64,000 nucleotides of DNA from Tridacna crocea (taxonomy: Eukaryota > Mollusca > Bivalvia > Cardiida > Cardiidae): positions 25,921,235-25,985,234 of the forward strand of contig OX031069.1 in NCBI GenBank assembly GCA_943736015.1. The letters are read 5' to 3'. Both the position numbers and the translations under genes were made by a program. Below the pieces are notes generated by a model, which was not told the DNA's origin, ran no database searches, and saw nothing but the letters and a program-made list of their open reading frames with translations. Shown in pieces: positions 135 through 63,430 of the stretch; position 1 is the stretch's first letter; each line of letters opens with the position of its first letter.

Positions 135-371
135 TTAACCCATTACGGTTTACCACACAATCCCTACTTTTGACGACCCTGAGAAAGAAGCCTATAGAAA
201 ACAGTGGAAAAAGGAGAAAATGCTGGTACCCAGCATTTTCTCCTTTTCCCACTGTGTTTTCTACCCTTCACAAAACAAATTTCAAAATTTAGTTTTCAGT
301 CACTTTTGTTTTGTCTGCAAATGCTGTCGAATTTGACATGCCTAAAATATTGTCGATTGATAATAAGTTAA
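135..371 (+). mobile_element. THP element, complete
   Basis: TTAA at both ends (135-138, 368-371). The hairpin is centred near 232 with loop GGTACCCAGC. Its left arm has CAGTGG and its right arm the matching CCCACTG, both differing from the usual CATTGTGG/CCACAATG. This is the first of about 80 related copies in the window. Confidence 0.88.
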
Positions 372-2369
372 ACAGGTACATGAAACAAAATTGTAGACTT
401 GTCCTTAATTTAAAACATTTGCAAAACTTCAAAATAGATTTGGCTTAGTTGATGATATTATTTGTGGGTAATGGGATCTAGAAATTATTAAGGGGAATAA
501 AGAAATTGCTGTATACCAGCTTTTTCTCCTTAAAAAATTCTTCCATTGGCTCAGTAAAACATGGGATGGTAGAGGCTTCCAATAGCTGGACGATAAAATA
601 CTGGTCAGTCATTGCACTTTAGCTGTCCTTAAGCAAGACCTATTTTTGCAACTGGTTGCTGGTTGCTCAGTCCCAAGGACTGAAGAACGATCTTTTAAAA
701 CTTCAACCCTTTCCCACGACCTTGAAAAACGAGCCTCTTCAGGCCTCTGCCAACTATCAGAAATTGGGGAGAAGTGACTTCTCCTTAGTCTGAGAATTGG
801 GAGAAGTTTTTCAAAATGGGGAGAAGTGGTCAGACTTTGGGGAGAAGTTCGGACGGACATCAAAAAATTGATTGGCCGAAATAGAGGGAATTCACAACAC
901 CTTAACAATATAACAAATTAATAAAATTACAAATCATGTGAATCTAAATGGAATGAAATTATTTTATGCTTTTTATCTTTTTTCATGATCAGTGTACTTA
1001 ATCAAAACATACTTACTCATAGTTTGCCATGCCAAATTCATGTATATTTACCTTTAGGATTAAATAAAATATCATGGAAAGAAATGATAATGGAAAGAGA
1101 AAGTAGTGCTAGTTGAGTATTAAATAGTTTCTCCTTGCACATTTTTCTTTTCAAAATTTTTTGAACACTAGACTATTTGTTTCCAGTCCTGAAAATAGTT
1201 TTTTGCTAAAAATCATTCTCATTCCCAAATTTAATATACATTGTAATACAAATGTAACATGTATACCTATCAAATTGACAGCATTTGCAGCTGGCAAATA
1301 CCGGTAGATAACCGCTCAAAGGCTGTAACTAATGTTTGATATAGTCTGTCAAATGTAGAAAGCTAGCTTACTTCCAACATATTCTCATATTGCCACGATG
1401 TTTTTAACTTTCTCTTGGTAAGTTAGACCCAGTTTCAGCGTGCGAGAGACATCAAAAATATAGCTGTCTGATTACCGTTTGTAAATTGTAAATAAAACCA
1501 TCGTTCAACAACTAACACCCAATTTACTTTCAAAGCCTTGTAGATCGGTGGTTCGCGGCCCAATCAAGGAAATATTATAAAATCAACGGAATACCTAGAT
1601 GTATCTAGAATAACATTTTTTTTTAGGTAGCATCATAGAATATGTTCGATTTTATCTAAATGCTGTTGCAGTGACGAGCTACCATTTTGAAGTTGAATCA
1701 TGTGACTTAGCTAAAATTCTCCGAAAGCCTTATAACGTGATACTATATTGGCGCCAAATTATAGTCACATGATTTGAAAATATTGCCACATGATGTAGGA
1801 GATGTCCTAAATACGTTATCATATTTGTTCGTTTGGAAAACTGCGAGTAATAACAAATTTTAATGGATGGAGTAAATGGTGATAAGCAAGTAGGTACCGA
1901 TTCCATCGTTTTCAAAACTGGAATATTTCAATCCATTTAAAACTTTGGGAATAAAAGTTGACGAAGAAAGACCAATATCCGGGGTAGGACTTTCACAGTC
2001 ATATCGTTACTAAATTTAGAAAAGCATGTTTCAAAAATAGAGGTCCGACAAACACCGGTAGGCGGCACTGATATTTGTCAATAATAGGGGATTATCCCAT
2101 GGTGTCGTAAAGTTAATTAACAATGACTTGTCAATCAGACTCTCGGTATGTTGTAAACTAATTAAACTTGCTGATTGGGCACTAATTGTTAATCGGGTAT
2201 GGCACATGCTAACTTGGTAGATTAGACACAGGGAGCTTTGTCAATATACGCGAGGCGACTTCCCGATTTTTTCAGGTGACTTGGACTTCGCTTTTCTTGG
2301 CGAAATGAGCAAAGTTTTTTTAAATCGGGCGACTTCTTTGCCCAAGTCGCCCACTCGGCAGAGGCCTGC
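372..2369. other. Unassigned non-coding stretch
   Basis: No gene recognised. A degenerate THP-like core lies at about 499-530. Bases 757-848 hold imperfect iterations of TTGGGGAGAAGT, and 2250-2370 hold iterated GGCGACTT/AAGTCGCC words in both orientations, suggesting remnants of one or more DNA transposons. The rest shows no clear structure. Confidence 0.5.
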
Positions 2370-2817
2370 TCTTAAAAGCATTGTAGGAAAAGGAGGGAAT
2401 GCTGGTGACCAGTATTTTCTCCTTTTCCCACAATATTTTCTACATAATCAGTCAGAAATCATCATATTAACAAGGTTTGATTTTTTGTCTGCAGATATTT
2501 TGAATTTGGTTCAGTCCAAAAATTTGTTGCCTGCCCGGGTGGCTCAGTGGTGAGCGTGTCGTGTCAGACTCATGACCTGGAGGTTGTGAGTTCGATACCC
2601 TGTTGAGGCGAACTTTCTTTGTGGCGTATTTTTGCCTCTCATCTCTGCTGAAGCATGTGAGAAAAGTAGTGGCTTTGGAAAGAAAGTTGTGATAGTACTG
2701 GTACATGTATGAGAAACACCTGTGCATCATCGATCGCCATGATATGACCTTAGCTGTTAAAGTGGTGTTAGACCCCAATACAACCAACCAACCAACCAAC
2801 CAAAGATTTATTGTTAA
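2370..2817 (+). mobile_element. THP element with SINE in its long arm
   Basis: The left end is truncated. The hairpin (GCATTGTAGGAAAAGGAGG...CCTTTTCCCACAAT) and the start of the L arm are present, then a tRNA-derived SINE (2531-2803) interrupts the L arm just before the terminal TTAA at 2814-2817. Confidence 0.75.
2531..2803 (+). mobile_element. tRNA-derived SINE, CCAA-tailed family, copy 1
   Basis: The tRNA-like head has an A box (TGGCTCAGTGGTGAGCG) and a B box (GAGTTCGATACC). The conserved body includes GCGAACTTTCTTT and ATGATATGACC, with a CAACCAACC tail. It shares head, body and tail with 56941-57203 and 62883-63141. It is a SINE head rather than a functional tRNA because no acceptor stem closes. 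Confidence 0.8.
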
Positions 2818-3100
2818 CTCTTTACCAAACAACAATTCTAGACTAGTCCAAACTGGAAGTAATACTTGCAGACGACAAAACTAATGTGACTCAAAAACTG
2901 AAAATTGTTTAGGGAAGGAAGAAAAACGTTGTGGGAAAAGGAGAAAATGCTGGTAAACTGCATTTTGTCCTCTTCTCACAATGTTTTCTACCCTTCCCAA
3001 ACCAAATTTCAATTTTTCAGTCACATGTATAATGTATTTGGTCGTCTGCAAATGCTTTCAAATTGGACTGGTCTAAAATTTCTTGGTGGTAAAGAGTTAA
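2814..3100. mobile_element. THP element with two long arms (L-L)
   Basis: Both sides of the hairpin carry the long arm (TTGCAGACGACAAAA on the left, GGTCGTCTGCAAATGC on the right), so this 287 bp copy is palindromic almost end to end instead of the usual S-L form. TTAA flanks both sides, and the left one is shared with the preceding element. Confidence 0.85.
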
Positions 3101-3164
3101 AGCCTGAAGTGGATCTCTTGCCTTTTGTACTTGCATAAAAAGTGTGAGAAACAAAAGTAATAAG

Positions 3165-3394
3165 CTCGTTACCATGTGACCAAATTTTAGACTCAGCCAA
3201 AGTTGAAAGACTGCACACAGTGATGAGGTGAATCATCGTTTAGATGATGGGATTTATTTTTGAAGAATAAAAATCATTGTTGGAACATGAGAAAATGCTG
3301 GTAATTAAATTATCAAGATGATTCCTTTTCCCAAAATATTTACAAAAGTCCTTTTTTCCTTGGCTGTATAGCTGCAGGATTATCAGAGGGTTAA
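3165..3394 (-). mobile_element. THP element, degraded
   Basis: Only the L-arm start (TTACCATGTGACCAAATTTTAG), GAGAAAATGCTGGTAA and the S-arm end AGAGGG-TTAA are recognisable. The right half of the hairpin is heavily mutated. Confidence 0.55.
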
Positions 3395-3733
3395 CTTTTG
3401 CCAAACATTAAAGTTTTAGGTCGGTAGACCTTGCCTTGTCTGGATGATAATTAGACACAGAATTGGCCTATGTGTGTCAAATTTAACACAAACATTCCTC
3501 TTGAAGTGTAGATGATCTCTATTGATTTTGAGGTCAATCAGTCAAAGGTCAAGGTCACAGTGACCGTCAACATGTTGATATAAAAACCAAACCTTGTCCA
3601 GATTATATCTAGACACAGAATTGAATTAGGTTCGTCAAATTTGGCACAGACGTGTGTCTTGGAGTGTAGATGATCCCTATCGAATTTCAGGTCAATCGGT
3701 CAAATGTCAAGGTCACAGTGATTGTCAATATAT

Positions 3734-6700
3734 TAGGGATGGCAATGAGTATTGATTTTATTACTGGAGTACTGGGTCATTCTTCTGATCGAGTACTCGG
3801 TTACTCGGACGATTTTTACTACATTTTTATACTAAAATTTCAGAGCAAGATCAGTATTTTTTGTGTCCCAAAGAATTGGAAACAGTGAAAATCTATTCAA
3901 CAAAAAATCTTGATCCGTTTGACACCCTTTGTTTACAAGCATTTATTTCACGTTCTACACACATAACATCATAAGCATGCTTCCCAACCCACCACGATTT
4001 CAAAGGGAGTTTCCTGATTCAAGACCTAAAAATCTAATCACCTGACAGACTATTTAAACCCCAATTCAAAAAAATTTCTGATATAAGTGTATAAAGGGTG
4101 TGATAAAGCTTGTATCTCAAATACATCTGAGGTTGCCATGGAGTTGACAAGCATGTATTTCATGGTCAATCGGGTTCATTCTTTATAAATAGAAATCAAC
4201 ATTCAGTAATCTAACCGAGTTTTATCGATCGAAGATCGACGAACCAATCAAATTTGAGAACGAGTCGAGCAGGTCCTTGTCAGTGGAATTTACATCATTC
4301 ACCCCACGTAAGCAGGTAAATTATATTATGATTTTACCAAAAAACGCAAAATAACAATCTTCATCGTTGTCCCAGGATATAGACAATAATGAGTTACAAG
4401 TTAATCATCAATGAAAACAATGGAAAAAAGCCAAGTTTGGGACTGTTTAATGCACAAATTGACCACTGGAATTCCAATCCGTCTAAAAATAGACCAACCT
4501 GCATATGAACGTATGTTTTATGAAATCAATGGCATGCTTTTTAATGTCGGCATTGTTTGACTTGTTAGCGGTCAGTGACCTAGAGTTCGCGAGTGTGTCT
4601 TGTCTGATCATAAGTTTTGGGACTGCTTATAAAATAATTATTTTTTATAGACCTTAGTATTGGAATGCGAAAAAAAAAATATACAGTATATATTTTACTA
4701 TCCCAAAAATTAAAGCAAAATAAGGTAGGTATACAACAGCACGTTGGCGATCACAAGGTACGCACGATCCCTAAATAAGTTTCACAGTCAAACTGTGAAG
4801 ATTAAGGATAATTACTTTCTCCTCCCTAATTAGACCATAGTAGCCGGCCTCTGATTTACTGAAATTACGAAAACTTTAATGATTAGCGATTAACGTGAAC
4901 GGTTTATCGTTATAATTGACACGTTTGTTGTTTATTACAAACACATGTCAAATTGAGAATTGTTTGACTATCTTTTGGTAACTTTCGCACTTATGCAACG
5001 ATGTTTTGATTATGTTTAATCGGCTGCAGTGTTTGTTTTGCAAAGAAATTTTTCCTCGGGATGCAAAATGGTACATTTTTAGCTCCACTGGCCGAAGGCC
5101 AGCGGGCTTATGTCATGGCCCGTTGTCCGTCGTGCGTGCGTGCGTGCGTCCATCCGTCCGTCCGTCCGTGCGTTAACTTTTTCTTTAAACATCTTCTTCT
5201 CTGAAACTACCCATCCAATTTTGATGAAACTTCACAGAAATGATCCTGCCATGGTCCTCTTCAGAATTTCTTGAAAGAATTTAATTCCTTCAAAAACTCT
5301 GGTTGCCATGGCAACAAAACTGAAAAATTTTGAAAATCTTTGAAAATCTTCTTGTCTGAAACCGTAAGGCCTAGAGCTACCAAATTTGGCATGTAGCTTT
5401 ATCTAGTGGCCCTCTACCAAGTTTCTTCAAATTATAGCCCTGGGGTCAAAATTGGCCCCGCCCCGGGGGTCACAAGTTTTACATGGGCTTATTTAGGGAG
5501 AACTTTTAAAAGTCCTCTTCTACCTAGGTATAAGGCCTAGGGCTATCATATTTTGGATGTTGTTTTATTTAGTGAACCTCTACCAAGAGTGTTTAAATTA
5601 TAGCCCTAGGGTCAAAATTGGCCCTGCCCCGGGGGTCACAAGTTTTACATGGGCTTACATAGGGAGAACTTCAGAATTCTTCTTCCATCTAGGCATAGGG
5701 CCTAGGGCTACCAAATTTGGCATGTAGCTTTATCTAGTGGACCTTTACCAACAGTTTCCAACTTATAGCCCAGGGGTCAAATTTGGCCCCGCCCCGGGGG
5801 TAACAAATTTTACATGGGCTTACATAGGGAAAAACTTTCAAAATCTTGTCGCATCTAGCTATAAGGACTAGGGCTGTCAAATTTTGCATGTAGCTTTATC
5901 TAGGGGGTCTCTACCAAGGGTGCCCAAAAGTATAGCCCTGGGGTCAAATTTAGCCCCCGTCACAGGGGATCACAAGTTTTGCATTGGCTTATATAGGGAA
6001 ACTTTAATAATCTACTTGTACATAGCCATAAGGCCTAGGGCTACCAAATTTTGCATGTAGCTTTATCTAATGGGTTTCTATCAAGAGGGCCATAATTTTA
6101 ACTTTGGGGGTCAAGTTTGACCCCATCCCAGGGGTCACAAGTTGTACATTGGCTTTATAAACCTGTCTCATGGGTCACATATATTTACAGGGCCTTTTAT
6201 TGAGCAAACTTGTTGTACAGGGCTTTTTATTGGGCAAGATTCAAAAATCTCTGTGTTTATAACCACACATTCTAGTTTCATATTGTAGGTCTGGGGTCAA
6301 AATTGGCTCCATCCAGGGATCACAAGTTTAACATGGGCCTCAAGATATAGTCACTTTAATTTATACATTAATCAAGGGAAATAACTCTTTTTATGAAAGA
6401 TAAAGTTTGGTACTATTTACCTCCCTTGATTATCAAACTGCATTGATACATGATTGGTGCTAGACATTAAGTTTTTTGATAGAAAATATTCTGTTTTCAA
6501 GTGTTATTCATTTTTTTGATGCTAATATTTATGCTTACATGAGGTGAATAATAAATTCAGAGTAAGGTTTCTATCATTCAGCTTATTTTTCCAAGGATTT
6601 TACCTTTCATGCTAATGAATTAACCTGCTTGTACTGCCTGACAGCGTTCATTGTTTTTGAAAGCCCTCTTTTTCATGGTCATGAACACTTCAATTTGTGT

Positions 6701-10887: not shown

Positions 10888-11117
10888 TTAACCCTTTCCC
10901 AAACAAATTCCTGGTTTTTACGGGTCAGGAATAGAAGCCTTTTGAAAACATTGTGGGAAAAGGAGAAAATGCTGGTAACCAGCATTTTCTCCTTTTACCA
11001 CAATGTTTTCTACTCTACCATATAGAAAAATCATCTTTTTAGCAACTGTTAATTTCTCATTTGCAAAATGTTTTCAATTTGGTCTTGTCCAAAATTTGCT
11101 GTTTGGGAAAGGGTTAA
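10888..11117 (+). mobile_element. THP element, CCCAAACAA subtype
   Basis: TTAACCCTTTCCCAAACAA at the left and TTTGGGAAAGGGTTAA at the right. The hairpin is complete except one C-to-A change in the right arm (CCTTTTACCACAATG). The subtype has GGGTCAGGAATAGAAGCC in the S arm. Confidence 0.9.
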
Positions 11118-11239: not shown

Positions 11240-11469
11240 TTAACCCATTACCACACAATCTCTACTTTTGACGCCCCTGAGAAAGAAGCCTTTTGAAAAC
11301 ACTGTGGGAAAAGGAGAAAATGCTGGTAACCAGCATTTTCTCCTTTTCCCACAGTGTTTTCTACCCTTCCCAGAACAAATTTCAATTTTTCAGTCACCAT
11401 TATTTTGTCGTCTGCAAATGCTTTCAATTTGGACCAGTCTAAAATTTTCTCATGTGGTAAAGAGTTTAA
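11240..11469 (+). mobile_element. THP element, complete, perfect 67-nt palindrome
   Basis: The hairpin arms are perfectly complementary over 33 nt with a single central base. Both arms carry a paired change from consensus (CACTGTGGG / CCCACAGTG instead of CATTGTGGG / CCCACAATG). TTAA is present at both ends. Confidence 0.92.
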
Positions 11470-14089: not shown

Positions 14090-14320
14090 TTAACCCTTTC
14101 CCAAACAATCTCTGGTTTTTTTTCGGGTCCAGAATAGTAGCCTTTTGAAAACATTGTGGGAAAAGGAGAAAATGCTGGTAACCAGCATTTTCTTCTTTTC
14201 CCACAATGTTTTCTACCCTATCATAGACAGAAATCATCTTTCCAGCAAGGGTTGAATTGTCGTCTGCAAATGCTTTTAATTTGGTCTAGTCCAAAAGTTT
14301 GTCATTTGGGAAAGGGTTAA
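14090..14320 (+). mobile_element. THP element, CCCAAACAA subtype, complete
   Basis: Ends TTAACCCTTTCCCAAACAA and GGGAAAGGGTTAA. The arms pair almost fully (one CTCC to TTCC change). A further short THP end fragment (GGTAAAGGGTTAA) follows at 14351-14363. Confidence 0.9.
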
Positions 14321-26028: not shown

Positions 26029-26257
26029 TTAACTCTTTACCAAACGACAAAATTTCAGACTGGTCCAAATTGAAAGCACTTGCAGACGACAAAATGAAAG
26101 TAACTCAAAAACTGAAATTTGTTTCCAGCAGGATAGAAAACATATTGGGAAAAGGAGAAAATGCTGATTATCAGCATTTTTTCCTTTTCCCACAATGTTT
26201 TCCAAAGGCTCCTATCTCAGGGTCATTAAAACCAGGGATTGCTTGGAAAAGGGTTAA
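26029..26257 (-). mobile_element. THP element, complete
   Basis: L arm GTCCAAATTGAAAGCACTTG first. The S arm ends GGAAAAGGGTTAA. The hairpin is CATATTGGGAAAAGGAG against CCTTTTCCCACAATG. Confidence 0.88.
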
Positions 26258-27559: not shown

Positions 27560-27757
27560 GCAGAGCTCAAGATAGAGGGAGTGATTCTGAATTAAAAATT
27601 GAAAATATTGATACCGGTTATTCTCCACTAAACCCTATGTTATGGGTACTCATTAGAATCGTCTCAATGAAACGATTCTAATAAGTACCCACAACATAGG
27701 GTTTGGAAGAAAAATAATGGATTTAGAATATCATCACTCCCTCTTATCTGGAGCTGC
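27560..27757. mobile_element. Palindromic MITE, GAGGGAGTGAT ends
   Basis: CAGAGCTCAAGATAGAGGGA at the left pairs with TCCCTCTTATCTGGAGCTG at the right. The centre has a strong stem, AAACCCTATGTTATGGGTAC against GTACCCACAACATAGGGTTT, with ATTAGAATCGT / ACGATTCTAAT inside. No other copy was noticed. Confidence 0.8.
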
Positions 27758-32516: not shown

Positions 32517-32744
32517 TTAACCCTTTCCCAAATGACAAACTTTTGGACTAGACCAAATTCAAAGCATTTGCAGACGACAATTCAACTGTTGCTAAAAAGA
32601 TGATTTCTGTCTATGATAGGTTAGAAAACATTGTGGTAAAGGAGAAAATGCTGGTAACCAGCATTTCCTCCTTTCCCCACAATGTTTTCAAAAGGCTTCT
32701 TTTCCTGACCAGTAAAAGCCAGGAATTGTTTGGGAAAGGGTTAA
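32517..32744 (-). mobile_element. THP element, CCCAAACAA subtype
   Basis: Begins TTAACCCTTTCCCAAATGAC with the L arm and ends TTTGGGAAAGGGTTAA. The right TTAA is shared with the next copy. Confidence 0.88.
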
Positions 32745-32967
32745 CTCTTTACCAAGTGATAAAATTTTAGACTTTGCAAAATTGAAAGCATTTGCAGACA
32801 ACAAAATAGAATTTGATTAAGTACTTGAAATTATTTTTTGAAGGGTAGAAAACATTGGGGGAAAAGTAGAAAATGCTGATTACTAGCATTTTCTCCAATC
32901 CTCCTGATGTTCAAACACCTTCTTCTTCAGGGTTGTTTGAAATCTGGATTGCATGGTAAAGGGTTAA
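32741..32967 (-). mobile_element. THP element, tandem with previous
   Basis: Starts on the shared TTAA. The right hairpin arm is diverged (TTTTCTCCAATCCTCCTGATG). Confidence 0.85.
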
Positions 32968-37304: not shown

Positions 37305-37534
37305 TTTGACCCTTTACCACACAATCCCGATTTTTAACAACCCTGAGAAAGAAAACTTTTAAAAACATTGTTGGAAAAGGAGAAAATGCTGGTAACCAGC
37401 ATTTTCTCCTTTTCCCACGATGTTTTCTACCCTTTCCAAATCAAGTTTCAATTTTTGATTCATATTTATTTTGTCGTCTGCAATTGCTTTCAATTTGGGC
37501 TAGTCCAAAAGTTTGTCGTTTGGGAAAGGGTTAA
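37305..37534 (+). mobile_element. THP element
   Basis: The left TTAA is mutated. The hairpin is complete with single mismatches (CATTGTTGG, CCCACGATG). The right TTAA is shared with the next copy. Confidence 0.87.
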
Positions 37535-37759
37535 CTCTCTACCAAACAACAAAATTTTAGACTGGTCCAAATTTTAAAAGCATTTGCAGATGACAATTGA
37601 CTTGACTAAAGAATTGAAATTTGTTTTAGGAAGAGGAGAAAACATTGTGGGAAAAGGAGAAAATGCTGGTTACCAGCATTTTCTCCTTTTCCCACAGTGT
37701 TTTCAAAAGGCCTCTTTCACAGGGGTGTTAAAAGTCAGGATTGTGTGGTAAAGGGTTAA
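37531..37759 (-). mobile_element. THP element, inverted neighbour of the previous
   Basis: Head-to-head with 37305-37534 (S-L then L-S) across a single TTAA. TTAA is also at the right end. Confidence 0.9.
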
Positions 37760-40653: not shown

Positions 40654-40878
40654 TTAAGCCTACCAAATGACAAAGTTTAGACTAGTCCAAATGGAAAGCA
40701 TTTACAGACAACATAAGAAATGTCGCTCAAAAACTAAAATTTGATATGGCATGGTTAGAAAATATTGTGGGAAAAGGAGAAAATGCTGGTTACTAGCATT
40801 ATCTCCTTTTCCCACAATGTTTTCAAAAGGATTTTGCTCAGGATCGTTAAAAGTCGGGATTGTATGGTAAAGATTTAA
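40654..40878 (-). mobile_element. THP element, complete
   Basis: TTAA at both ends. The hairpin has one change (GCATTATCTCC). The right TTAA is shared with the next copy. Confidence 0.87.
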
Positions 40879-41106
40879 CCCTTTACCACACAGCAAAATT
40901 CTAGACCGTTACAAATCGAAAGTATTTGCAGACGACAATTTATAAGTCAGGCTCAAATGGTGTAATTTTGCTTTGATAGGGTAGAAAACTTGGTGGGAAA
41001 AGGAGAAAATGCTGGTAACCAGCATTTTCTCCTTTTCCCACAATGTTTTCAAAAGGCTTCTTCCACAGGGTCGTTAAAAGTCGTCATTGTGTGGTAAAGG
41101 GTTTAA
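40875..41106 (-). mobile_element. THP element, L' subtype
   Basis: The L arm has GGCTCAAATGG...TTTGCTTTGATAGGGTAG in place of the common CTCAAAAATTGAAATTTG. The same L' arm occurs at 44796, 59710, 60372 and 62152. Confidence 0.87.
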
Positions 41107-41239: not shown

Positions 41240-41468
41240 TTAACCCATTACCACACAATCCCTACTTTTGACGCCCCTGAGAAAGAAGCCATTAGAAAAC
41301 ATTGTGGGAAAAGGAGAAAATGCTGGTAACCAGCATTTTCTCCTTTTCCCACTATGTTTTCTACCTTTCACAAAACAAATTTTAAATTTTCAACCACTTT
41401 TATTTTGTCGTCTGCAAATGCTTTCGATTTGGACAAGCCTAAAATATTGTCGTTTGGTTATGGGTTAA
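41240..41468 (+). mobile_element. THP element, complete
   Basis: TTAA at both ends. The right hairpin arm has CCCACTATG against CATTGTGGG. An orphan end (CCACACAATCTCTAGC) precedes it at 41219. Confidence 0.9.
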
Positions 41469-43798: not shown

Positions 43799-44027
43799 TT
43801 AACCCATTACCACACAATCCCTACTTTTGATACCTCTGAGAAAGAAACCATTAGAAAACATTGTGGGAAAAGGAGAAAATGCTGGTAACCAGCATTTTCT
43901 CCTTTTCCCACAATGTTTTCTACCCTGCTAGAAACTAACTTCAATTTTTGAGTTACGCTTATTTTTGTTGTCTGCAAGTGCTTTCAATTTGGACCAGTCT
44001 CAAATTGGACGTTTGGTAAAGGGTTAA
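43799..44027 (+). mobile_element. THP element, complete, consensus palindrome
   Basis: TTAA at both ends. The 67-nt palindrome is perfect and consensus in both arms. Confidence 0.92.
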
Positions 44028-48110: not shown

Positions 48111-48343
48111 TTAACCCATTACCGCACAATCCCTACTTTTGACAACCCTGAGAAAGAAGCCTTTTGAAAACATTGTGGGGGAAAAGGAGAAAATGCTGGT
48201 AACCAGCATTTTCTCCTTTTTCCGCAGAATGTTTTCTAGCCTTCACATAACAAATTTCAAATTTTCAGTCACTTTTATTTTGTCATCTGCAAATGCTTCC
48301 GATTTGGACAAAATTAAAATTTTGTCATTTGGTAATGAGTTAA
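48111..48343 (+). mobile_element. THP element, complete
   Basis: TTAA at both ends. One extra G in the left arm (GTGGGGGAAAAGG), with TTTTTCCGCAGAATG in the right. Confidence 0.9.
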
Positions 48344-49612: not shown

Positions 49613-49841
49613 TTAACCCTTTCCCAAAAGACAAATTTATAGGCTGGTCTAAATTGAAACCATTTTGAGATGACAAAATAAATGTGACGGTAGAATCGAA
49701 ATTTGACTTGGGAAAGGTAGAAAAGATTGTGGAAAAAGGAAAAAATGCTTGTTACCATCATTTTCTCCTTTTACCACAATGTTTTCATAAGGCTTCTACA
49801 TCAGGGTCGTCAAAAGTCGTCATTGTGTGGTAAAGGGTTAA
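49613..49841 (-). mobile_element. THP element
   Basis: TTAA at both ends. The arms are diverged but paired (GGAAAAAGGAAAAAATGC; CCTTTTACCACAATG). Confidence 0.85.
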
Positions 49842-50195: not shown

Positions 50196-50420
50196 TTAAC
50201 CCTTTCCCAAACAATCCCTGGTTTTTACGATGCTAGGAAAGACTGCTTTTGAAAACACTGTAGGAAAAGGAGATAATGCTGGTAACGGGCATTTTCTTCT
50301 TCTCCCACGGTGTTTTCTGCCCCTTCGTAAACAAAAGTCATCATTGGCATTGCATTTGATTTATCGTATACAAACTCTTTCAATTTGGTCTGGTCCAAAA
50401 TTTGTTTGGGAAAGGGTTAA
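50196..50420 (+). mobile_element. THP element, first of a three-copy train
   Basis: CCCAAACAA subtype. The loop is GCTGGTAACGGGC. The right TTAA (50417-50420) starts the next copy. Confidence 0.88.
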
Positions 50421-50644
50421 CCCTTTACCAAACAATCCCTGCTTTTTACGACCCAGAGGAAGAAGCCTTCTGAAGACATTGTGGGAAAAGGATGAAAGCT
50501 GGTAATCAGCATTTTCTCCTTTTCCCACAATGTTTTCTACTCTTCTAAGTTCAAGTTCTAATTTTTGAGCCATGTTTATTTTGTCGTCTGCAAATGCTTT
50601 CAATTTGGAAGGGTTGAAAATCTTGTTGTTTGGTAAAAGGTTAA
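50417..50644 (+). mobile_element. THP element, second of train
   Basis: The left hairpin arm is damaged (GGAAAAGGATGAAAGCTGG). The right TTAA 50641-50644 is shared onward. Confidence 0.88.
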
Positions 50645-50872
50645 CTCTTTACCACACTATTCCGACTTTTAACAACCCTGAGAAAACAGTCTTTTGAATA
50701 CTTTGTGGGAAAAGGAGAAAATGCTGGTTACCAGCATTTTCTCCTTTTCCCACAATGTTTTCTACCCTCCCCCAAACCGAATTTCAATTTTTTAGTCACA
50801 TTTATTTTTGTCGTCTGCAAATGCTTTCAATTTGGACTGGTCTAAAATTTTTCTATGTGGTAATGAGTTTAA
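50641..50872 (+). mobile_element. THP element, third of train
   Basis: Consensus hairpin with loop GGTTACC. It ends GAGTTTAA. Confidence 0.88.
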
Positions 50873-55913: not shown

Positions 55914-55914
55914 T

Positions 55915-56044
55915 ACAGAATAGAAAACTTTGTTGGAAAAGGAGAAAATGCTGGTTACCAATGTTTTCTCCTTTGCCCACAATGTTTTCAAAAGCTTTAG
56001 CTGTAGGGGTCAATAAAAGATGGAATTGTTTGGTTGAACCTTAA
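55915..56044 (-). mobile_element. THP element, L arm truncated
   Basis: Starts GAATAGAAAACTTTG. The hairpin has ACCAATGTTTTCTCC on the right. It ends at the TTAA shared with the next copy. Confidence 0.7.
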
Positions 56045-56270
56045 CCCTTTACCCCATAATGCATTTCTATGGTATCTCTAATTGACCCTAAATAACAGCA
56101 AGGATGAAGCCGTTTCTTATTGTGTATATGACACCTTTTGATAGCATAGAAAACATTGTGGTGAAAGGTGAAATTGCTCGTCACTAGCAATTTCACCTTT
56201 TGCCACAATGTTTTCCAAAGGCTCCTACAAGCAATGCGTAGAAATGAGTATCTATGGAGTTAAGGGTTAA
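56041..56270 (+). mobile_element. THP subfamily B, complete, with paired arm changes
   Basis: The ends are standard (TTAACCCTTTACC, AAGGGTTAA) but the arms are a different sequence (GGTATCTCTAATTGACCC on the left). The hairpin reads GGTGAAATTGCT / AGCAATTTCACC, with two substitutions from consensus mirrored in both arms. Confidence 0.88.
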
Positions 56271-56553
56271 AGTAAAAGGCTCTTGCAGGGGGATGAGTGG
56301 TTTTGTATTGATGTTTGCATTTTCTTCCCTTTTCTGTCAATATTGGTTACATAGAATACCTATATATCAACCCGAAACTCTTCCTGTTCGTCAATGCTGT
56401 CATCACATCATCCGTAATAGTGAAAAATAGGACAGGAAATGAGCATTGTTTTACTGTGTAAGATTGCAAAAGTTGCAAATGTTTGCTCCCCCCCTCTCTG
56501 CCAGTGTAGTTATTAATGACCTGCTTTCCCTTTCTATCCATTCTCGCTCAGCT
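56271..56553. other. Intron spacer
   Basis: Nothing recognised. Confidence 0.4.
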
Positions 56554-56845: not shown

Positions 56846-56940
56846 TGTAACCAATCTAACTTGGCTGTTTTCAAAGATTGTCATAGCACCTTTGTTGTTG
56901 TAACTGTGTTGTCAAGGTGTAAAATTTTTTATATTTTGTG

Positions 56941-57203
56941 CCTCCCCGTGTGACTCAGTGGTGAGCGTGTTGGACTAATGACCAGGTCGTTGTAAGTTCA
57001 ATACCTGGTTGTGGCGAACTTTCTTTCAGGCGTATTTTTGCCTCTCACCTCTGAAACATGTGAGAAAAGTAGTCGGTGGGTTTGGAAAGATAGTTGTGTT
57101 GGTACTGGTGTGAGAAAGCCAGGAAATACATGTGGGTCACCATCCACCATGATATGACCTAAGCTGTTAAAGTGGCATTAAACCCCAAATACAACCAACC
57201 AAC
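56941..57203 (+). mobile_element. tRNA-derived SINE, CCAA-tailed family, copy 2
   Basis: A box TGACTCAGTGGTGAGCG and B box GTAAGTTCAATACC, body GGCGAACTTTCTTTC and ATGATATGACCTAAGC, tail ACAACCAACCAAC. Closest to the copy at 2531. Confidence 0.82.
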
Positions 57204-57429
57204 TTTGATATTTTGTAGTACTTCTGTCATAATTACTGAAGATATTTTACTTTATACTTGGACTATTCAGTACAAATCAAATGGGGAAGCAATACAACAG
57301 GAGCAGGTAACAACAATAATATTTTTGACACAGTTATGCCCCATTTTTGACTTAAAATTTTAACTGAAAATCAAACTATCCCTAAAAGTGACCGAATCCA
57401 AGCCATGGCATCAGTATGTGGTGGTCATG

Positions 57430-57668
57430 TTAACCCATTACCACACAATCCCTACTTTTGATGCCCCTGAGAAAGAAGCCTTTAGAAAACAATAGAAAAC
57501 ATTGTGGGAAAAGGAGAAAATCCTGGTAACCAGCATTTTCTCCTTTTCCCACAATGTTTTCTACCCTTCACAAAACGAATTTCAAATTTTTAGTCACTTT
57601 TATTTTGTCATCTGCAAATGCTTTCGATTTGGACAACCCTAAAATATTGTCGTTTGGTAATGGGTTAA
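57430..57668 (+). mobile_element. THP element with short duplication beside hairpin
   Basis: TTAA at both ends. TAGAAAACAATAGAAAACATT shows a 9 bp tandem duplication at the foot of the hairpin, and AAAATCCTGG in the left arm breaks one pair. Confidence 0.9.
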
Positions 57669-57833
57669 CATACATCCAAAACCTGTCAGGCACAAAGGGA
57701 CCATCTGGAAATTCTGCTCATCAATTAAATGAAAACCACTCAAAGATTGTACGGGTCAGTTTAAGTTGATAGTTCAAAAATTATTGTATAGGTAAAATGA
57801 TCACTTTTCATACAGAAAATATCATAAAAGCAA

Positions 57834-57895
57834 AAAAGTGTCAACCCTGGTCAGCCTGCGCACTATGCGCAGTCTGACCAGGGTTGACACTTTTT
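57834..57895. repeat. Long-stem palindrome, CAACCCTGGTCAG
   Basis: A 30 bp stem with one mismatch: AAAAAGTGTCAACCCTGGTC pairs with GACCAGGGTTGACACTTTTT, and CTGCGCA / TGCGCAG closes the loop. A decayed relative may be at 61645-61720 (GACCGAGGTCAGCATG). Confidence 0.82.
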
Positions 57896-58214
57896 GGAGT
57901 TCCGAGAGGGATAGGTGCAATAGCAGCCAAGATACATCTGAAACACTATTAGAAATGGCATAACAAACAAACAAACAAACAAACAATAGGTTTTTGTGAG
58001 AATTCAACAAATGTCATCAATATCAATTTGCTTCTCAAGTGTCAGGTAAAGATAGGTTTGAACTGAAAATGCTATTTTTGGAATCCGTCTAACATTGCCA
58101 GTAGTGAAAGTTTTATGACTTCAACACCTATGTAGAACATGCAATTTCTTTTCCCTGACATCTTTTCAAAAAAACAGGAGACTTCATTCATAGATATTCT
58201 CTGAATCCTATTTA

Positions 58215-58325
58215 TCAACCCTTTACCAAGCAATACCTGGTTTTCAGGACTTTTGGAAGAATGGCTTTCGAAAACATAATGGGAAAAGGAGGAAATGCCG
58301 GTAACCAGCATTTTCTCCATTAGGG
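58215..58325 (+). mobile_element. THP element, right end truncated
   Basis: S arm (CCCTTTACCAAGCAATACC) and hairpin (GAGGAAATGCCGGTAACC) stop at CTCCATTAGGGG. Confidence 0.75.
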
Positions 58326-58440
58326 GATTAGTAAAATATTAATTGGAATGTGAATTTTGACTCTCAAAAGGGGAAAAGCAGAAAATCATGGTAACCAGTA
58401 TTTCCTGCTTTTCAATCATTCTGATGGAAAATCCCCTTAT
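58326..58440. mobile_element. Diverged THP-like hairpin with changed stem
   Basis: GAAAAGCAGAAAATCATGGT pairs with ACCAGTATTTCCTGCTTTTC. The GCAG/CTGC pair replaces the usual GGAG/CTCC in both arms. Its own outer words GGGGATTAG and AATCCCC are inverted, and neither S nor L arm is present. Confidence 0.65.
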
Positions 58441-58517
58441 TTGAATTATGAATTGTCTGTAATGAGATAATTGATCATCTTGGATTCATTTGTGCTGACT
58501 TAACTGTAGGCTATTTT

Positions 58518-58656
58518 CAACCTGTTACCATACAGTTCGGAGTTTATACAACCCAGAGGAAGAATCCTTTCGAAAGTTCTGTGGGAAAATGAAGAAAATA
58601 CAAATGTATTGGGAATCACCATTTTCTCTTGTACCATGATATTTGCTGCCTATTAA
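58518..58656 (+). mobile_element. THP element, degraded
   Basis: S arm CCTGTTACCATACAGTTC, a decayed hairpin, no L arm. It ends at the TTAA shared with the next copy. Confidence 0.6.
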
Positions 58657-58880
58657 CTCTTTATCACACGAAAATTTTTTAGGCTGGTCCAAATTCAAAG
58701 CATTTGCAGACAACAAAATGAATGTGCCTGAAAAATTGAAATTTGGTTTGTGAAGGGTAGAAAACATTGTGGGAAAAGGAGAAAATGCTGGTTACCATCA
58801 TTTATCCTTTTCCTTCAATGTTTTCTAAAGGCCTCTTTCTCAGGTTTGTCAAAAGTAGGGATTGTGTGGTAATGTGTTAA
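58653..58880 (-). mobile_element. THP element
   Basis: TTAA at both ends. The right hairpin arm is decayed (CATCATTTATCCTTTTCCTTC) against a consensus left arm. Confidence 0.87.
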
Positions 58881-59017
58881 AGCTCATTATTTAGACCAAC
58901 CAGAAATTACATGTATTTCACTTTCTAAATTTAGAATGGAATTTAGAATTCTATTCGGAATAGTTTGTGATCACATATCCTAACCTAATATTTGTTTCCA
59001 TTCTTTATTATTTTCAG

Positions 59018-59146
59018 GATTTCATTGAGATGTTCATTCACCATATCGCTACTATTTCCTTGTTAAGTTTTTCATATGTCGCCAATTTCACCCGAGTGGG
59101 AACTTTAGTCCTCTGCATACATGACTGTGCTGATATCTGGGTTGAG
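59018..59146 (+). CDS. CERS: Ceramide synthase exon: Lag1p catalytic motif
   Basis: A 129-base phase 0/0 exon with acceptor TTATTTTCAG and donor GTGAGT. It encodes 43 residues that include FIHHIATISLLSFSY and RVGTLVLCIHDCADIW. The adjacent His pair and the HDxxD pair of Asp residues are the invariant residues of the Lag1 motif required for acyltransferase activity, so the enzyme looks catalytically intact. This is the strongest single piece of evidence for the family assignment. Confidence 0.97.
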
Positions 59147-59196
59147 GTGAGTATTTTTGTTGTTTCTCATTGTATCCTAGATGTAATCAAATTTGT

Positions 59197-59424
59197 TTAA
59201 CCCTTTGCAAAACGATTCCATGTTTCAAGGACCTTTCAAAGAGGCCTGTTGAAAACATTGCAGAAAAAAGGAGAAAATGCTTGTAACCAGCATTTTCTCC
59301 TTTTCCTACAATGTTTTCTACCCTTTACATAACAAATTTCAAATTTTCATTCACTGTTATTTTGTCGTTGGCAAATGCTTTCAATTTGGACAAACCTAAA
59401 ATTGTGTCGTTTGGTAATGATTTA
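59197..59424 (+). mobile_element. THP element in the 405 bp CerS intron
   Basis: Starts 50 bases after the 59146 exon end. Hairpin GAAAACATTGCAGAAAAAAGG on the left. The right end has decayed to TTTAGG. It makes up more than half of this short intron. Confidence 0.87.
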
Positions 59425-59474
59425 GGTGAAAATAGGTAGAAAACAGCAACAAATACTATAAAAAGATCAATTAA

Positions 59475-59532
59475 TCCAACCAATTAATCCAACCAACCAA
59501 CCAACCACCCAACCAACCAACCAACCAACCAA
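59475..59532 (+). repeat. CCAA microsatellite before exon 59552
   Basis: CCAACCAACCAACCAACC-type run of about 55 bases ending about 20 bases before the exon's acceptor AG, followed directly by the T-rich tract. Confidence 0.9.
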
Positions 59533-59551
59533 TTTTTTTTTCTGTTTTCAG

Positions 59552-59658
59552 GGAGCAAAAATAGCAAAATATCTAAAGTGGGACAGACTCTGTGATGTAT
59601 TGTTTGCAATATTTGGTATTAGTTGGTTGGTAACCAGATTGATCTGTTATCCAGCTAA
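59552..59658 (+). CDS. CERS: Ceramide synthase exon: TLC membrane helix after Lag1 motif
   Basis: A 107-base exon that starts in phase 0 with GGA GCA AAA after acceptor TGTTTTCAG. It ends with two bases of a Lys codon before donor GTAAGT. It encodes GAKIAKYLKWDRLCD followed by the hydrophobic VLFAIFGISWLVTRLI and CYPAK. This corresponds to the E(A/S)AKMxxYxxxxxxC region and following helix of CerS proteins. Only 405 bases separate it from the previous exon. A CCAA-type microsatellite ends about 20 bases before its acceptor. Confidence 0.95.
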
Positions 59659-59709
59659 GTAAGTATATGTCTTTGTTTTAACACTTCACCACACTGCCCT
59701 GTGTATTTC

Positions 59710-59933
59710 ACCCTTTACCACACAACAAAATTTCAGACATGCAAGAATTGAAAGTGTTTACAGATGACAGTTCTCATTGTGGCTCATATCAAATGATTTT
59801 TCTTTGATAGGGTAGAAAAAATTATTGGAAAAGGCGATGCTGGTAACCAGCATTTTCTCCTTTTCCCACAATGTCTTCAAAAGCTTTCTCTTTCAGGGTC
59901 GTTAAAAGTCATCATTGTGTGGTAAAGGGTTAA
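59710..59933 (-). mobile_element. THP element, L' subtype, left hairpin arm shortened
   Basis: TTGGAAAAGGCGATGCTGG lacks AGAAA in the left arm. The right arm is consensus. TTAA at the right end. An orphan S-arm scrap (TTAACACTTCACCACACTGC) is at 59679. Confidence 0.82.
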
Positions 59934-59939
59934 AATCCT

Positions 59940-60070
59940 TAGAAAGAAAGTTTATGAAAACTTGAAAAATGGAGAAAATGTTGGTCACCAACCTTGTCTC
60001 TTTTTCCATAAATGCTTTCTAGTTTCTACCCTTCCAATCACAAAACACATTATTGGAATAAAATTGTCTT
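59940..60070 (+). mobile_element. THP element, degraded
   Basis: GGAGAAAATGTTGGTCACCAA is recognisable. The arms are decayed. Confidence 0.55.
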
Positions 60071-60079
60071 CAATTAAGA

Positions 60080-60272
60080 AAATCCAGACTTTTAGCAATC
60101 TTGAGTCAAATGTAGCCTTTACAAAACATTCTGTGTAAAGGAGAAAATGCTGATAAACAGCATTTTCTCATTCTCCTTCAATGATTTCTAACCTTTCACA
60201 GACAGATCCCATCATTCAGGTCACATTAGAAATGATGTCTCTGCAAATATGTTCAATTTAGACAGGTCTAAG
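60080..60272 (+). mobile_element. THP element, degraded
   Basis: Hairpin AAAGGAGAAAATGCTGATAA with GCATTTTCTCATTCTCC. L-arm words TCTCTGCAAATATG. TTAA ends lost. Confidence 0.65.
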
Positions 60273-60371
60273 TACAACTGTAATTAAGTACCACTGTCAG
60301 AAAGTATCATTGTTTGAAAATTATTTGTTGCATATCTGTTTCCTATAATTTATGATCCATGATACAGTAAG

Positions 60372-60610
60372 ACAAACCTTTACCACACATCAAAATTTTA
60401 GACCAGTCCGAATTGAAAGCATTTGCAAGTGACAGTTTCAATGTCGTTCATTGTGGCTCATATTAAATGGTTTTTCTTTGATAGGGTTAAAAACATTGTG
60501 GGAAAAGGAGAAAATGCTGGTAACCAGCATTTTCTCCATTTCCCAAAATGTTTTCAAAAGCTTTCACTTTCATGGGCCTTAAAAGTCGTCATTGTGTGGT
60601 AAAGGGTTAA
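60372..60610 (-). mobile_element. THP element, L' subtype, complete hairpin
   Basis: The left end has decayed (AAACCTTTACC). The palindrome is near consensus (CTCCATTTCCC in the right arm). It ends GGTAAAGGGTTAA. Confidence 0.88.
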
Positions 60611-60672
60611 TGCATCTCAATTATGCTTATAAAAAGCAACACATCACATAATTATGGAACCATAAAGTTCAT

Positions 60673-60910
60673 TATACCCCCGCAAAATGAATCTTTTTGG
60701 CGGTTTCCTGGAATCAGCCTATCTGTGCGTCTGTCCATCCATGCGTCCATCTGTGTGTCCGTCCATGTGTCTGTCTGTGAACAAAATACTAGTAATTTTG
60801 TGTCGTGAACTTCTCCTACTGTTTTTGTGGTATTTGTCGAAGACAATACCACTATGAGTTCAAGATTGAATTTTGATAACCATGTATCTTATTTTGTGCA
60901 AAGCCGAAGG
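60673..60910 (+). mobile_element. Helentron-like head fragment, ATACCCCCGCAAAATG
   Basis: TATACCCCCGCAAAATGAATC, a TCCATCCATGCGTCC run and GTGAACTTCTCCTACTG are typical of an array-element head. It ends at the 0.65 kb repeat with AAGCCGAAGG, with no array and no CTCTTGTT. Confidence 0.65.
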
Positions 60911-61415
60911 AAATAAACCCAGTTAAACTCATTCTTTCTCAGACAAATGAGTTTTTTGGTGGCACACAGATATGTAATTTGAAATGGCATTTTAAAATAC
61001 ATTGGGCAAGGCCATTGATCGTTGTTATATTTATTCATGAATGAAACTAGCTTCTCTCGCTCATACCGTTTTATTGGCGCAATGATACAAATTTGCCTAT
61101 TGACCCTGGGCTTTTTCGTTCCAAAACCAATTCGATCCATGGCTTGTTCGTCCTATGATTTCGCATTACTCCATTTGATTGCTCATGAATATTTATAGAT
61201 CGAAGTAATTGATTGTGATGTTGGAAATTAAATGTAAAAGGATAAAGATATTTCAAAATTATAGTTTTAAGGTACATGAGTACTCTCCCTTCAACTGAAA
61301 AGGTATTCACTAAGCCAATATATGAACAATATGTCTCTTTTTCTTTCAAACTATTGATTCCATGCAATGGGTTTCCTTGGCAAATACCACTTCCGCGTTC
61401 TCAACACTTTGATTC
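60911..61415 (-). repeat. 0.65 kb dispersed repeat, copy 2 (reverse)
   Basis: Reverse complement of 28815-29475 with small indels. Its edge AATAAACCCAGTTAAACTC abuts an array-element head just as in the other copy. Confidence 0.78.
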
Positions 61416-61768
61416 GTCAATTGTATTGAACCTTTACACATATACTGAGTATATATTAAAGATTTGCAAGACGCAATTTTCAAGTATCAACTCTTCCTGG
61501 TTGAGGAATTGCCTCTCCTTGAACTTGACACTTTTTTCTGCCGAAGCGCAGGTTTTAAGTCTCATTCAATGACAGCTTAGTTTTGTCAAACAAGTGAATG
61601 AGTCATGAGGTAGAATGGGTCCTTTTATGAAAAATGGACCATCTGCAAAAAGTTTTGACCGAGGTCAGCATGCCCAGATTGCATAGACTGACGCGAGTCA
61701 ATACTTTTTGCGGAGGCATTACACCCCCTTTCACAGATCATGGGTTATTTATGTTATATATTTTTCAG
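61416..61768. other. Intron spacer upstream of last visible exon
   Basis: 61645-61720 carries mirrored GACCGAGGTCAGCATG...CATAGACTGACGCGAGTC words, a decayed palindrome. Otherwise unassigned. Confidence 0.4.
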
Positions 61769-61928
61769 AATATTGTATACCACATGGTATGAAAGCAGTG
61801 AGATTATTGGCTACTTTCCTTCCCTGTATTTCTTTAATGGATGGCTATGTTTACTTCTTGTTCTCCACGTCTATTGGTTTTCACTGATCGTCCGTGTTGC
61901 ATATGGAGCCCTTACCAAATCGTCAGAG
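61769..61928 (+). CDS. CERS: Ceramide synthase exon: last loop and final membrane helices
   Basis: A 160-base exon with acceptor ATTTTTCAG and donor GTGAGT. Its first base completes the split Lys codon. It encodes 53 residues: ILYTTWYESSEIIGYFP, then SLYFFNGWLCLLLVLHVYW and FSLIVRVAYGALTKSSE. The stretch after ESSEIIG lies in the loop between the last two helices, reported to influence acyl-chain-length choice in mammalian CerS enzymes. It ends in phase 0. A further exon with the acidic, phosphorylatable tail (DxRSD type in vertebrates) is expected but was not recognised before base 64000. Confidence 0.95.
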
Positions 61929-62035
61929 GTGAGTGAATGTTCTCTGGTTTATCATATGTGTTGGACTGAATCAAAATATTGATACTTAACTGCTTACGAA
62001 AACAAACCCATGTCTTCGTGACCTTTAACACAGAC

Positions 62036-62092
62036 ATGAGGGCTGATTGACCGAAGTTGTCGATGTGCTATAAAACAGCATTCATTAATTCC
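62036..62092 (+). repeat. 3' fragment of the dimeric SINE-like repeat
   Basis: GACCGAAGTTGTCGATGTGC and AAAACAGCATTCATTAATTC match the 3' end at about 45670-45716. Confidence 0.6.
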
Positions 62093-62151
62093 CCATGACC
62101 AAAATGGAAAAATGCTGTTGAAAACAGTGATGCGAAGGAAATAAATGCTGT

Positions 62152-62369
62152 TTAACCCTTTACCACATGACAAATTTCTAGACTCTACCAACTTTGAACC
62201 AACTTCAAAGAATCGCAGACTACAGTTTCATTTGGCATAAATGATGGTTTTTTTCCTTTGACGGTAGAAAAAAATGTGGTAACCAGCATTTTCTCCTTTT
62301 CCCACAATGTTTTCAAAAGTCTTCTTCCTCAGAGTTGTTCAAAGTCAGCATTGTGTGGTAAAGGGTTAA
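62152..62369 (-). mobile_element. THP element, L' subtype, left hairpin arm deleted
   Basis: AGAAAAAAATGTGGTAACCAGC joins the foot of the hairpin to the loop. The right arm is consensus. TTAA at both ends. Confidence 0.87.
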
Positions 62370-62882
62370 CCAATATCAGGACTGTGATTTTTCTTGCTTT
62401 CAGAGGATTTCAGGCCTCTGAAGCCAGAGTTTGAAATAGTTCTAGCCCAAAAGGAGTTGCTCCAGAATGCTGTATTTGCTGATGTTTGTTGTGTGGGTGG
62501 TTGACATTGCAAAGATTTGCAGGATAACCTTTACAAATTTGTTTGTTACATGATATTAACCAACAGGTTAGAGGTCATAAATCTGAATTTGGATAGGCCT
62601 AAAATTTTGTCACTTGTTCAGGGCTAATCCAAGGTGGCCCAACTTCAGTAACTTTTTGTCATCGTTGCTGTTAAGGATCAGACTCTATGGATCAACAACA
62701 TCTTCTGAAATGTGAATTTTCTTGCTCAGGCAGCCCAAAAATTGAAACTTTTTGCAGCTTTTACCTTACACACAGGATATAGAAGGCTTTTGAAAACATT
62801 GTGGGAAACTGAATATGTTGTTGATAATTATTGCTTCCAAAATGAAAGAGTTACAAATTTTGTTCTCAGGTAAGTAATTACG
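62370..62882. other. Spacer with THP scraps
   Basis: An L-arm end (TTTGGATAGGCCTAAAATTT) at 62588-62607 and a hairpin foot (GGCTTTTGAAAACATTGTGG) at 62787-62806. No convincing CerS exon. Confidence 0.5.
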
Positions 62883-63141
62883 CCAGGCTGGGTAGCTCGG
62901 TGGTAAGGGTATTTGACTTATGATCTAGAAGTTGTGTGTTCAATATTGGGTTCTGGTGAACTTTCTTTTGGGTGATTTTTCGCCTCTTGTCTTTGATGCA
63001 CGTGAAGAAGTTAATGGTTTTGGAAAAGAAAGTTGTGTCGGTACTGGTATGAGAAACCCAGGAAACATGGGTGTGTCAACGACCGCCATGATATAACCTA
63101 AGCTGTTAAAATGGCTTTGAACTCCAATACAAACCAATTCA
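62883..63141 (+). mobile_element. tRNA-derived SINE, CCAA-tailed family, copy 3
   Basis: A box GGGTAGCTCGGTGGTAAGG, weak B box GTTGTGTGTTCAATATTG, body GGTGAACTTTCTTTTGGG and CATGATATAACCTAAGC, tail ATACAAACCAATTC. The most diverged of the three clear copies. Confidence 0.75.
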
Positions 63142-63202
63142 AGTCATTTGGCTGAAAACTGCTATGTCATATATTCATTATATGTCAGAAAATTGGTGTT
63201 TC

Positions 63203-63430
63203 AGCTCTTCAACAGATGGCAAGATTATAGACCAGACCAAATTGAAAACATTTGCAGACTACATATTATATTCAGCTCAAATAATGGCATTTGTCTTTTA
63301 TAGGATAGGAAATATTGTGACAATAGGAGAAAATGCTGGTTACCAGAATTTCTTATTTTTCAACTTCTATGTTTCAAAAAAAAAAAAATCCTCAGGTTCA
63401 TTATAAACCTTTATTGCTTGGTAAAGATTG
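63203..63430 (-). mobile_element. THP element, diverged
   Basis: L arm GACCAGACCAAATTGAAAAC, hairpin GGAGAAAATGCTGGTTACC with a decayed right arm, S arm GCTTGGTAAAG. TTAA ends lost. Confidence 0.7.

Follow-up and report, generated by a model that had tools for sequence, protein, structure and literature searches.

Miniature inverted-repeat transposable elements (MITEs) with piggyBac-type ends, CC[C/T]T within TTAA, were described from Acropora corals as CMITEs, and the available part of that account distinguishes several families in which conservation is higher in the internal region than in the inverted ends; neighbouring copies lie in rows, and one family is connected with a piggyBac element through its ends and a short adjoining sequence (PMC2872659). 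The subject here is a MITE family of the giant clam Tridacna crocea with ends of the same type, recognised in a stretch of 64,000 nucleotides (the window; assembly GCA_943736015.1, contig OX031069.1, positions 25,921,235 to 25,985,234 of the forward strand) and followed through the genome. The coral group is the nearest described parallel that was found, the likeness being one of description. CMITEs are about 100 bp long and were estimated at 1,600 copies in A. millepora, whereas the clam element has a consensus of 229 bp; palindromes, hairpins, secondary structure and stems are not mentioned in the available part of the coral account (PMC2872659), whereas a palindrome is present here. Among the titles and abstract starts of the open-access literature searched no description of the clam family was found, and what is new is its scale and its palindrome.

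The transposons piggyBac of T. ni and piggyBat of M. lucifugus (structures 6x67 and 9c0f) share with the autonomous clam elements described below a transposase superfamily, aligned aspartates and the TTAA target. Their ends carry repeats and palindromes, the latter bound by paired cysteine-rich domains, and in the part of the source available these palindromes measure 14 and 19 bp (PMC11707139), whereas the clam element, of 229 bp, has a single palindrome of 67 bp at its middle. The T2/Kolobok MITEs of Xenopus are likewise TTAA-targeting and form a very long-lived family, but have AGGRR ends and a Kolobok transposase, according to the available part of their description (PMC6004289).

Copies in the window

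The string TTAACCNWTTACC, with at most one mismatch, was matched 72 times in the window against 1.07 expected, a number reached by none of 100 shuffles. A profile of the MITE, built first from 25 copies and later from 106, gave at a cut-off of at least 20 bits 101 non-overlapping matches, whole and partial, which cover 27.8% of the bases and are divided between the forward (49) and reverse (52) strands; 56 of them span at least 200 of the 227 model positions, and five first-order resamplings of the window yielded no match. The 229-bp consensus, small, uniform and too short for a transposase, runs from TTAA through inverted ends of 13-16 bp, a left arm of about 80 bp, the palindrome and a short right arm to a second TTAA. 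Its left end is TTAA-C[T/C]C[A/T]TT[A/C]CCAAACGACAAAATTTTAG and its right end, read inward, TTAA-C[C/T]C[A/T]TT[A/C]CCACACAATCCCTAC, terminal inverted repeats (TIRs) of the CCC or CTC type, which agree with the CC[C/T] type and the 12-19 bp expected of piggyBac MITEs. The central palindrome consists of 33+1+33 nt with a one-base centre in the consensus and is perfect at 11295-11361.

An earlier sequence-only reading of the window had described copies in both orientations with TTAA ends, unequal arms and a palindrome of up to 67 nt with a one-base centre, a description that the profile copies bear out, and its figure of about 80 copies falls between the near-full and the total matches. It had also seen no transposase-bearing relative in the window, and no listed match to the piggyBac domain PF13843 lies inside it (116 of 196 candidates scored). 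Individual copies and related features are as follows.

149..63426, no strand: span of all 101 non-overlapping profile matches of at least 20 bits
135..371, reverse: first copy, nearly full length, with the end TTAACCCATTACG at 135 (profile match 137-371, model 1-227)
10888..11117, reverse: full-length copy of the CTTTCCC-end type, TTAA at both ends
11240..11468, reverse: full-length copy, right end TTAACCCATTACCACACAATC, other end GTTTA
11295..11361, no strand: 67-nt central palindrome, 33+1+33, 100% complementary
14090..14320, reverse: full-length copy with CTTTCCC ends on both sides
26029..26257, forward: full-length copy
32517..32744, forward: full-length copy whose right TTAA is common to the next copy
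32741..32967, forward: full-length copy, TTAA at 32741-32744 common to the preceding copy
37306..37534, reverse: full-length copy, left end TTGA, TTAA common to the next copy
37531..37759, forward: full-length copy
40875..41105, forward: full-length copy
41240..41468, reverse: full-length copy, CATTACC type
43799..44027, reverse: full-length copy
48111..48343, reverse: full-length copy, CATTACC type
49613..49841, forward: full-length copy, apparently nested in an older copy; an uninterrupted relative has TAAA there, not TTAA
50196..50420, reverse: first of a row of three copies sharing TTAA sites
50417..50644, reverse: second of this row
50641..50871, reverse: third of this row
56041..56270, forward: copy with family-2 ends TTAACCCTTTACCCCATAA, different arms and a mirrored variant of the palindrome
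57430..57668, reverse: full-length copy with CATTACC ends
58653..58880, forward: full-length copy

Target sites and neighbouring copies

Across all sampled DNA (defined below) 126 copies ran from end to end. A TTAA within 2 nt was found at both ends of 73 of these, at one end of 43 and at neither end of 10; at control positions 12 nt outward the corresponding numbers were 0, 12 and 114. When the joined flanks of the 126 copies were compared with the sampled DNA, 11 comparisons passed the filters and six were listed. One of them is a clean empty site, in which the flanks of a copy at L011:5942-6168 are 89.6% identical over 144 nt to non-MITE DNA at L017:1641-1784 and the junction is a single TTAA with no gap. 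The copy at L035:5528-5755, whose own right TTAA is lost, is a MITE inserted in another MITE, and here the relative has TTAA.

Neighbouring copies that share a TTAA numbered 5 in the window against 5.7 expected and 8 in random stretches against 6.7 expected. The idea that the MITE prefers its own TTAA ends was thus not supported, shared neighbours occurring at the level of random TTAA choice, whereas the rows of CMITEs were ascribed to slippage in the available part of the coral account (PMC2872659).

Autonomous piggyBac elements with matching ends

At least 118 matches to PF13843 were found in the genome, many in open frames. Twenty of these loci were taken for inspection, and end pairs were picked out for nine elements, all with TTAAC[C/T]C at both ends; at L020 such a pair was preferred over another inverted pair, and at the other loci no end pair was found. 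MITE-like ends are carried by a clade formed by L015, L016, L029, L030 and L031. Pieces of piggyBac transposase, many with stops, are clustered at C13:4.48-4.61 Mb (about 130 kb) and C8:56.71-56.76 Mb (about 50 kb).

Element A of this clade is 7,203 bp long (L032+L030) with the ends TTAACCCATTACC and TTAACTCATTACCAC, and occurs at four loci on contigs C3, C5, C9 and C15 (L029, L030, L031, L016) with 99.6-99.9% identity over about 6-6.9 kb, which argues that a transposase of the clade moved recently. The C5 copy contains several nested MITE remains, and the L031 copy has no TTAA at its right junction. Element B, seen at one locus (L034+L015), is 6,376 bp long and has the ends TTAACTCTTTCCCACACAATCCCGACTTTTTACGACCC and TTAACTCTTTCCCACACA, the first of which is identical at 34/38 positions to the right end of the MITE. 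The motif CAATCCCGACTTTTWACGACC or a close form stands in the left end of B at 17, 52, 87 and 122, in exact 35-bp steps that resemble, by analogy, subterminal transposase sites; the MITE right end retains one copy of it, the first, and the left end of A has weaker matches at 17 and 52.

The stop-to-stop frames of B and A encode 508 amino acids (PF13843, E = 4.4e-89) and 492 amino acids (E = 2.7e-88), the frame of B is an open DDE_Tnp_1_7 frame, and in A, B and the sister element C the PF13843 match extends over the whole domain. The B frame also matched the structures of piggyBat (9c0f, E = 6.6e-40) and piggyBac (6x67, E = 3.6e-33). Its residues D178, D256, D366 and D369 align with aspartates of both and are invariant in A, B and C; we take them to be the catalytic set. 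The C-terminus of the frame is cysteine-rich.

The MITE is very probably a non-autonomous piggyBac transposon, as the sequence-only reading had proposed, and this assignment is supported by the matching ends, the open DDBD-type frames and the single-TTAA empty site. Two observations weigh against it. An autonomous partner was found in B as regards the right end, the subterminal repeat and the frame, but a search of the right ends of A and B gave no counterpart to the MITE left arm past the TIR, so that neither can be named as the exact autonomous parent of the MITE. Likewise the empty sites follow the logic of TTAA duplication in the one clean case, whereas in 4 of the 6 listed rows the subject has no TTAA.

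Some structure within the family is apparent from the ends. Among 37 copies with readable ends, 36 of which enter this table, a CTTTCCC end was paired with another CTTTCCC end in 7/9 against 1/27 (p = 3e-5). The difference between CATT and CTTT among the same 37 copies was not significant (p = 0.18), so that any correspondence between subfamilies and the end types found in A-like and B-like elements is no more than a suggestion.

Abundance and age

The assembly searched comprises 1,048,827,098 bases in 31 contigs, the window lying on contig C14. A 29-base core of the palindrome, GAGAAAATGCTGGTNACCAGCATTTTCTC, occurs exactly 208,145 times, and its reversed control does not occur. Copies were counted in a sample of 280,298 bases that combines the window, the surroundings of the piggyBac elements and random stretches; ten loci that were duplicates or had been fetched anew (L001, L002, L004, L006, L008, L016, L027, L029, L031, L033) were left out. 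With 286 MITE copies and 48 exact cores in this sample, the genome-wide core count corresponds to 1.24 million copies, 217 Mb and 20.7% of the genome. A right-end pattern with 37,242 occurrences per strand genome-wide and 16 in the sample scales to 1.33 million copies; the forward and reverse counts of this non-palindromic pattern are exactly equal, by coincidence or through an artefact of the tool, and if it is an artefact this second estimate halves. We would put the family at about 1 million copies, with a range of 0.7 to 1.8 million, and at about 20% of the 1.05-Gb genome.

The family is dense genome-wide, and the window is no exception. The first 6 of 60 randomly drawn 10-kb stretches contained 105 copies or 17.5 per 10 kb (standard error 5.2, range 0-36, 31.8% of bases) against 15.8 per 10 kb in the window, and the density that the sequence-only reading had called extreme is therefore not local. 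The piggyBac surroundings, with the transposons themselves included, held 80 copies in 156,298 bases (8.4% of bases). In 124 kb of window and random stretches the commonest dispersed 14-mer was found 16 times outside the MITE family and 138 times inside it. Most copies are old, with a young tail: the terminal branch has a median of 0.096 and a minimum of 0.01, and 15% are below 0.05. A count of singletons, by which the rate in the palindrome was not lower than elsewhere (0.013-0.016 against 0.008-0.011), had been tried as a test of age and was replaced by a count on the tree, since columns with many changes conceal private ones. The MITE core was not found in virus contigs, and when core and end strings were looked for in print, one of six strings had a single match, in a zebrafish paper, which was taken as chance.

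A piggyBac MITE class is not named in the available parts of the T. crocea repeat tables (PMC11700175, PMC10858879). Table 2 of the first gives rolling-circle elements 22.48%, short interspersed nuclear elements (SINEs) 16.01%, DNA elements 14.19% and unclassified repeats 9.87%, and for T. maxima its text and table disagree on the DNA and rolling-circle figures (PMC11700175); table 4 of the second, for a 1.30-Gb assembly, gives 34.9% 'unknown DNA' in 2,578,864 pieces and 1.03% rolling-circle elements (PMC10858879). With a family of about 20%, only the rolling-circle class of the former table, as far as that table is available, could hold all of it, and the copies may have been filed under that or other class names.

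The same agreement in size would favour a derivation of the MITE from Helitrons, as would 32 Helitron Rep matches in the genome (all 42 candidates scored), by which the rolling-circle class is in any case not empty. Helitrons have neither inverted ends nor target duplication and insert between A and T. The MITE, by contrast, has inverted ends, TTAA duplication and a piggyBac partner, and a rolling-circle origin is scarcely credible. Membership of the Kolobok superfamily would explain the TTAA target equally well, and Kolobok elements have been reported from bivalves in the part of the source available (PMC10294476). However, T2/Kolobok MITEs are described in the available part of their account as ending in AGGRR after TTAA (PMC6004289) and are disfavoured for that reason, the MITE ends being CCC or CTC with neither AGGRR nor RR termini; the autonomous elements with matching ends, moreover, carry a piggyBac transposase. 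A Kolobok MITE is accordingly very improbable, though no search of the genome was aimed at Kolobok transposases.

The central palindrome

Changes were counted along a tree of 108 of the 127 full copies. On internal branches the palindrome underwent 0.70 changes per non-CpG site, 4.4-fold fewer than the arms (3.07), with the ends at 1.81; on terminal branches the changes per site and copy were 0.0595 in the palindrome, 0.091 in the arms and 0.0736 in the ends. The deficit in the palindrome is larger on internal than on terminal branches, which places most of the conservation in source lineages and less of it in dead copies.

At least two MITE families have the palindrome in common. The second, with 9 of the 127 full copies and the ends TTAACCCTTTACCCCATAAGG and TTAACCCTTTACTCCATAGAT, has arms that align with those of family 1 no better than shuffled sequence does (83 and 72 of 200 shuffles do equally well) and are unrelated beyond about 10 bp adjoining the palindrome. 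The palindromes are identical at 58/67 positions, against 10/16 at the left end and 11/16 at the right, so that, as in the CMITEs, the internal region is better conserved between families than the arms or TIRs. Their nine differences comprise the centre base and four pairs in which both arms have changed and pairing is kept; all four arm changes are mirrored and none is unmirrored. Each of the four is a base-pair flip (G-C to C-G or A-T to T-A), other pair changes being absent. Genome-wide, a family-2 31-mer occurs 15,594 times and a family-1/family-2 hybrid 31-mer once, both strands together.

Similar changes were found within families. In 201 copies of family 1 there were 74 complementary changes on both arms against 35.6 expected, an excess that is strong (p < 0.005, uncorrected) in 6 of the 33 pairs (3, 8, 23, 24, 26, 27), weak (0.02-0.05) in 4 and absent in 23. 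A tree of 122 copies was also built without the palindrome; with pairs 5-29 counted on it, 22/217 left-arm changes were mirrored on the same branch, 19 of them on terminal branches, compared with 3-10 when the pairing was slid by 1-4; for family 1 alone the figures were 17/167 and 2-6. Folded as RNA, the consensus forms a 32-bp stem and has an energy of -86.7 kcal/mol, for which z is -8.8 relative to shuffles.

The palindromes seen in A and B, which had at first looked native to these elements, are most readily explained as nested MITEs; weak matches were also seen in C and in element H. Two further palindromes, at L028:432 and L020:2518, have GCCATTGCT...AGCAATGGC in common and may represent a third core relative, with TGCTC/GAGCA like family 2. 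Different palindromes at window position 57864 and at L039:812 share GCCTGCGCA near the centre and constitute another hairpin repeat family, and at 27667 of the window there is an imperfect palindrome with 39-bp arms outside any copy of the MITE family. A SINE-like repeat, judged by eye only, lies at 2533-2800, with a tRNA-like head GCCCGGGTGGCTCAGTGGT... followed by a body.

Why the palindrome is kept

We favour, at somewhat less than even odds, the view that the palindrome is a transposition module maintained in source lineages. The mirrored changes might instead be produced after insertion, by gene conversion within an element or template switching between its arms, with no part for selection during transposition. 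The twofold excess of both-arm changes in family 1 speaks for such correction, as does the number of coupled left-arm changes relative to slid pairings and their position on terminal branches, but an excess that is strong in six pairs and absent in 23 fits subfamilies better than pervasive correction, and 195/217 left-arm changes were uncoupled; we regard it as rather unlikely. A hairpin RNA transcript, giving rise to small RNAs that would benefit the element or be put to use by the host, is an unlikely reason for conservation: the stable fold and a stem kept by mirrored changes are what it predicts, but any palindrome folds and a DNA palindrome predicts identical covariation. Much the same improbability attaches to the palindrome being a functionless relic of a common ancestor whose arms were replaced by recombination. 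That the arms of the two families are unrelated outside the immediate borders of the palindrome suits a relic, but four mirrored and zero unmirrored substitutions between families do not, nor does the 4.4-fold deficit of internal-branch changes.

Several observations also weigh against a transposition module. The palindrome changes less than the arms on terminal branches too, which is not fully explained by an effect in sources only. It was not found in the autonomous elements save for the nested-MITE-like copies in A and B and the weak matches in C and H, and it is far longer than the palindromes in the ends of piggyBac and piggyBat.

The sequences give good support to mobilisation in trans, at TTAA sites, by piggyBac transposases of the A/B type. 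Transposases of the A/B clade, or unseen relatives, would bind the TIR and subterminal repeat of the MITE, which would be excised and reinserted into other TTAA sites, and long repetition of this cycle could lead to about 1 million copies. The palindrome would most simply serve as a symmetric docking site for paired cysteine-rich transposase domains; such a site must change on both arms at once, as the families show. Alternatively it may form a cruciform or hairpin in the DNA and so promote pairing of the ends. A cruciform joining the ends of a short element would predict the same mirrored changes and would account better for the length of the palindrome. In either case copies would decay after insertion, and new sources would arise only from palindromic ones.

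Implications

Taken as a whole, the proposal is that MITEs of different piggyBac lineages have in common a palindromic DNA module whose changes are mirrored and which works as a built-in transposition enhancer, by docking or as a cruciform. It would be the reason why one MITE family reached about 1 million copies and a fifth of the genome, much of it perhaps filed under other class names. We assign this tentative reading a probability of about 0.35.

If the count is true, a single non-autonomous family of 229 bp occupies about one fifth of an animal genome of 1.05 Gb. For comparison, all MITEs of rice together account for 6.04% of its genome, and rice is named as an outlier among monocots in the available part of a survey of 207 plant genomes (PMC12550479). 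A family of this size would explain part of the repeat richness of giant-clam genomes, and would bear on the disagreement between published tables for T. crocea, in which, as far as these are available, rolling-circle elements stand at 22.48% and 1.03% (PMC11700175, PMC10858879). A palindrome that is conserved while ends and arms change would offer a direct test of which internal MITE sequences drive amplification.

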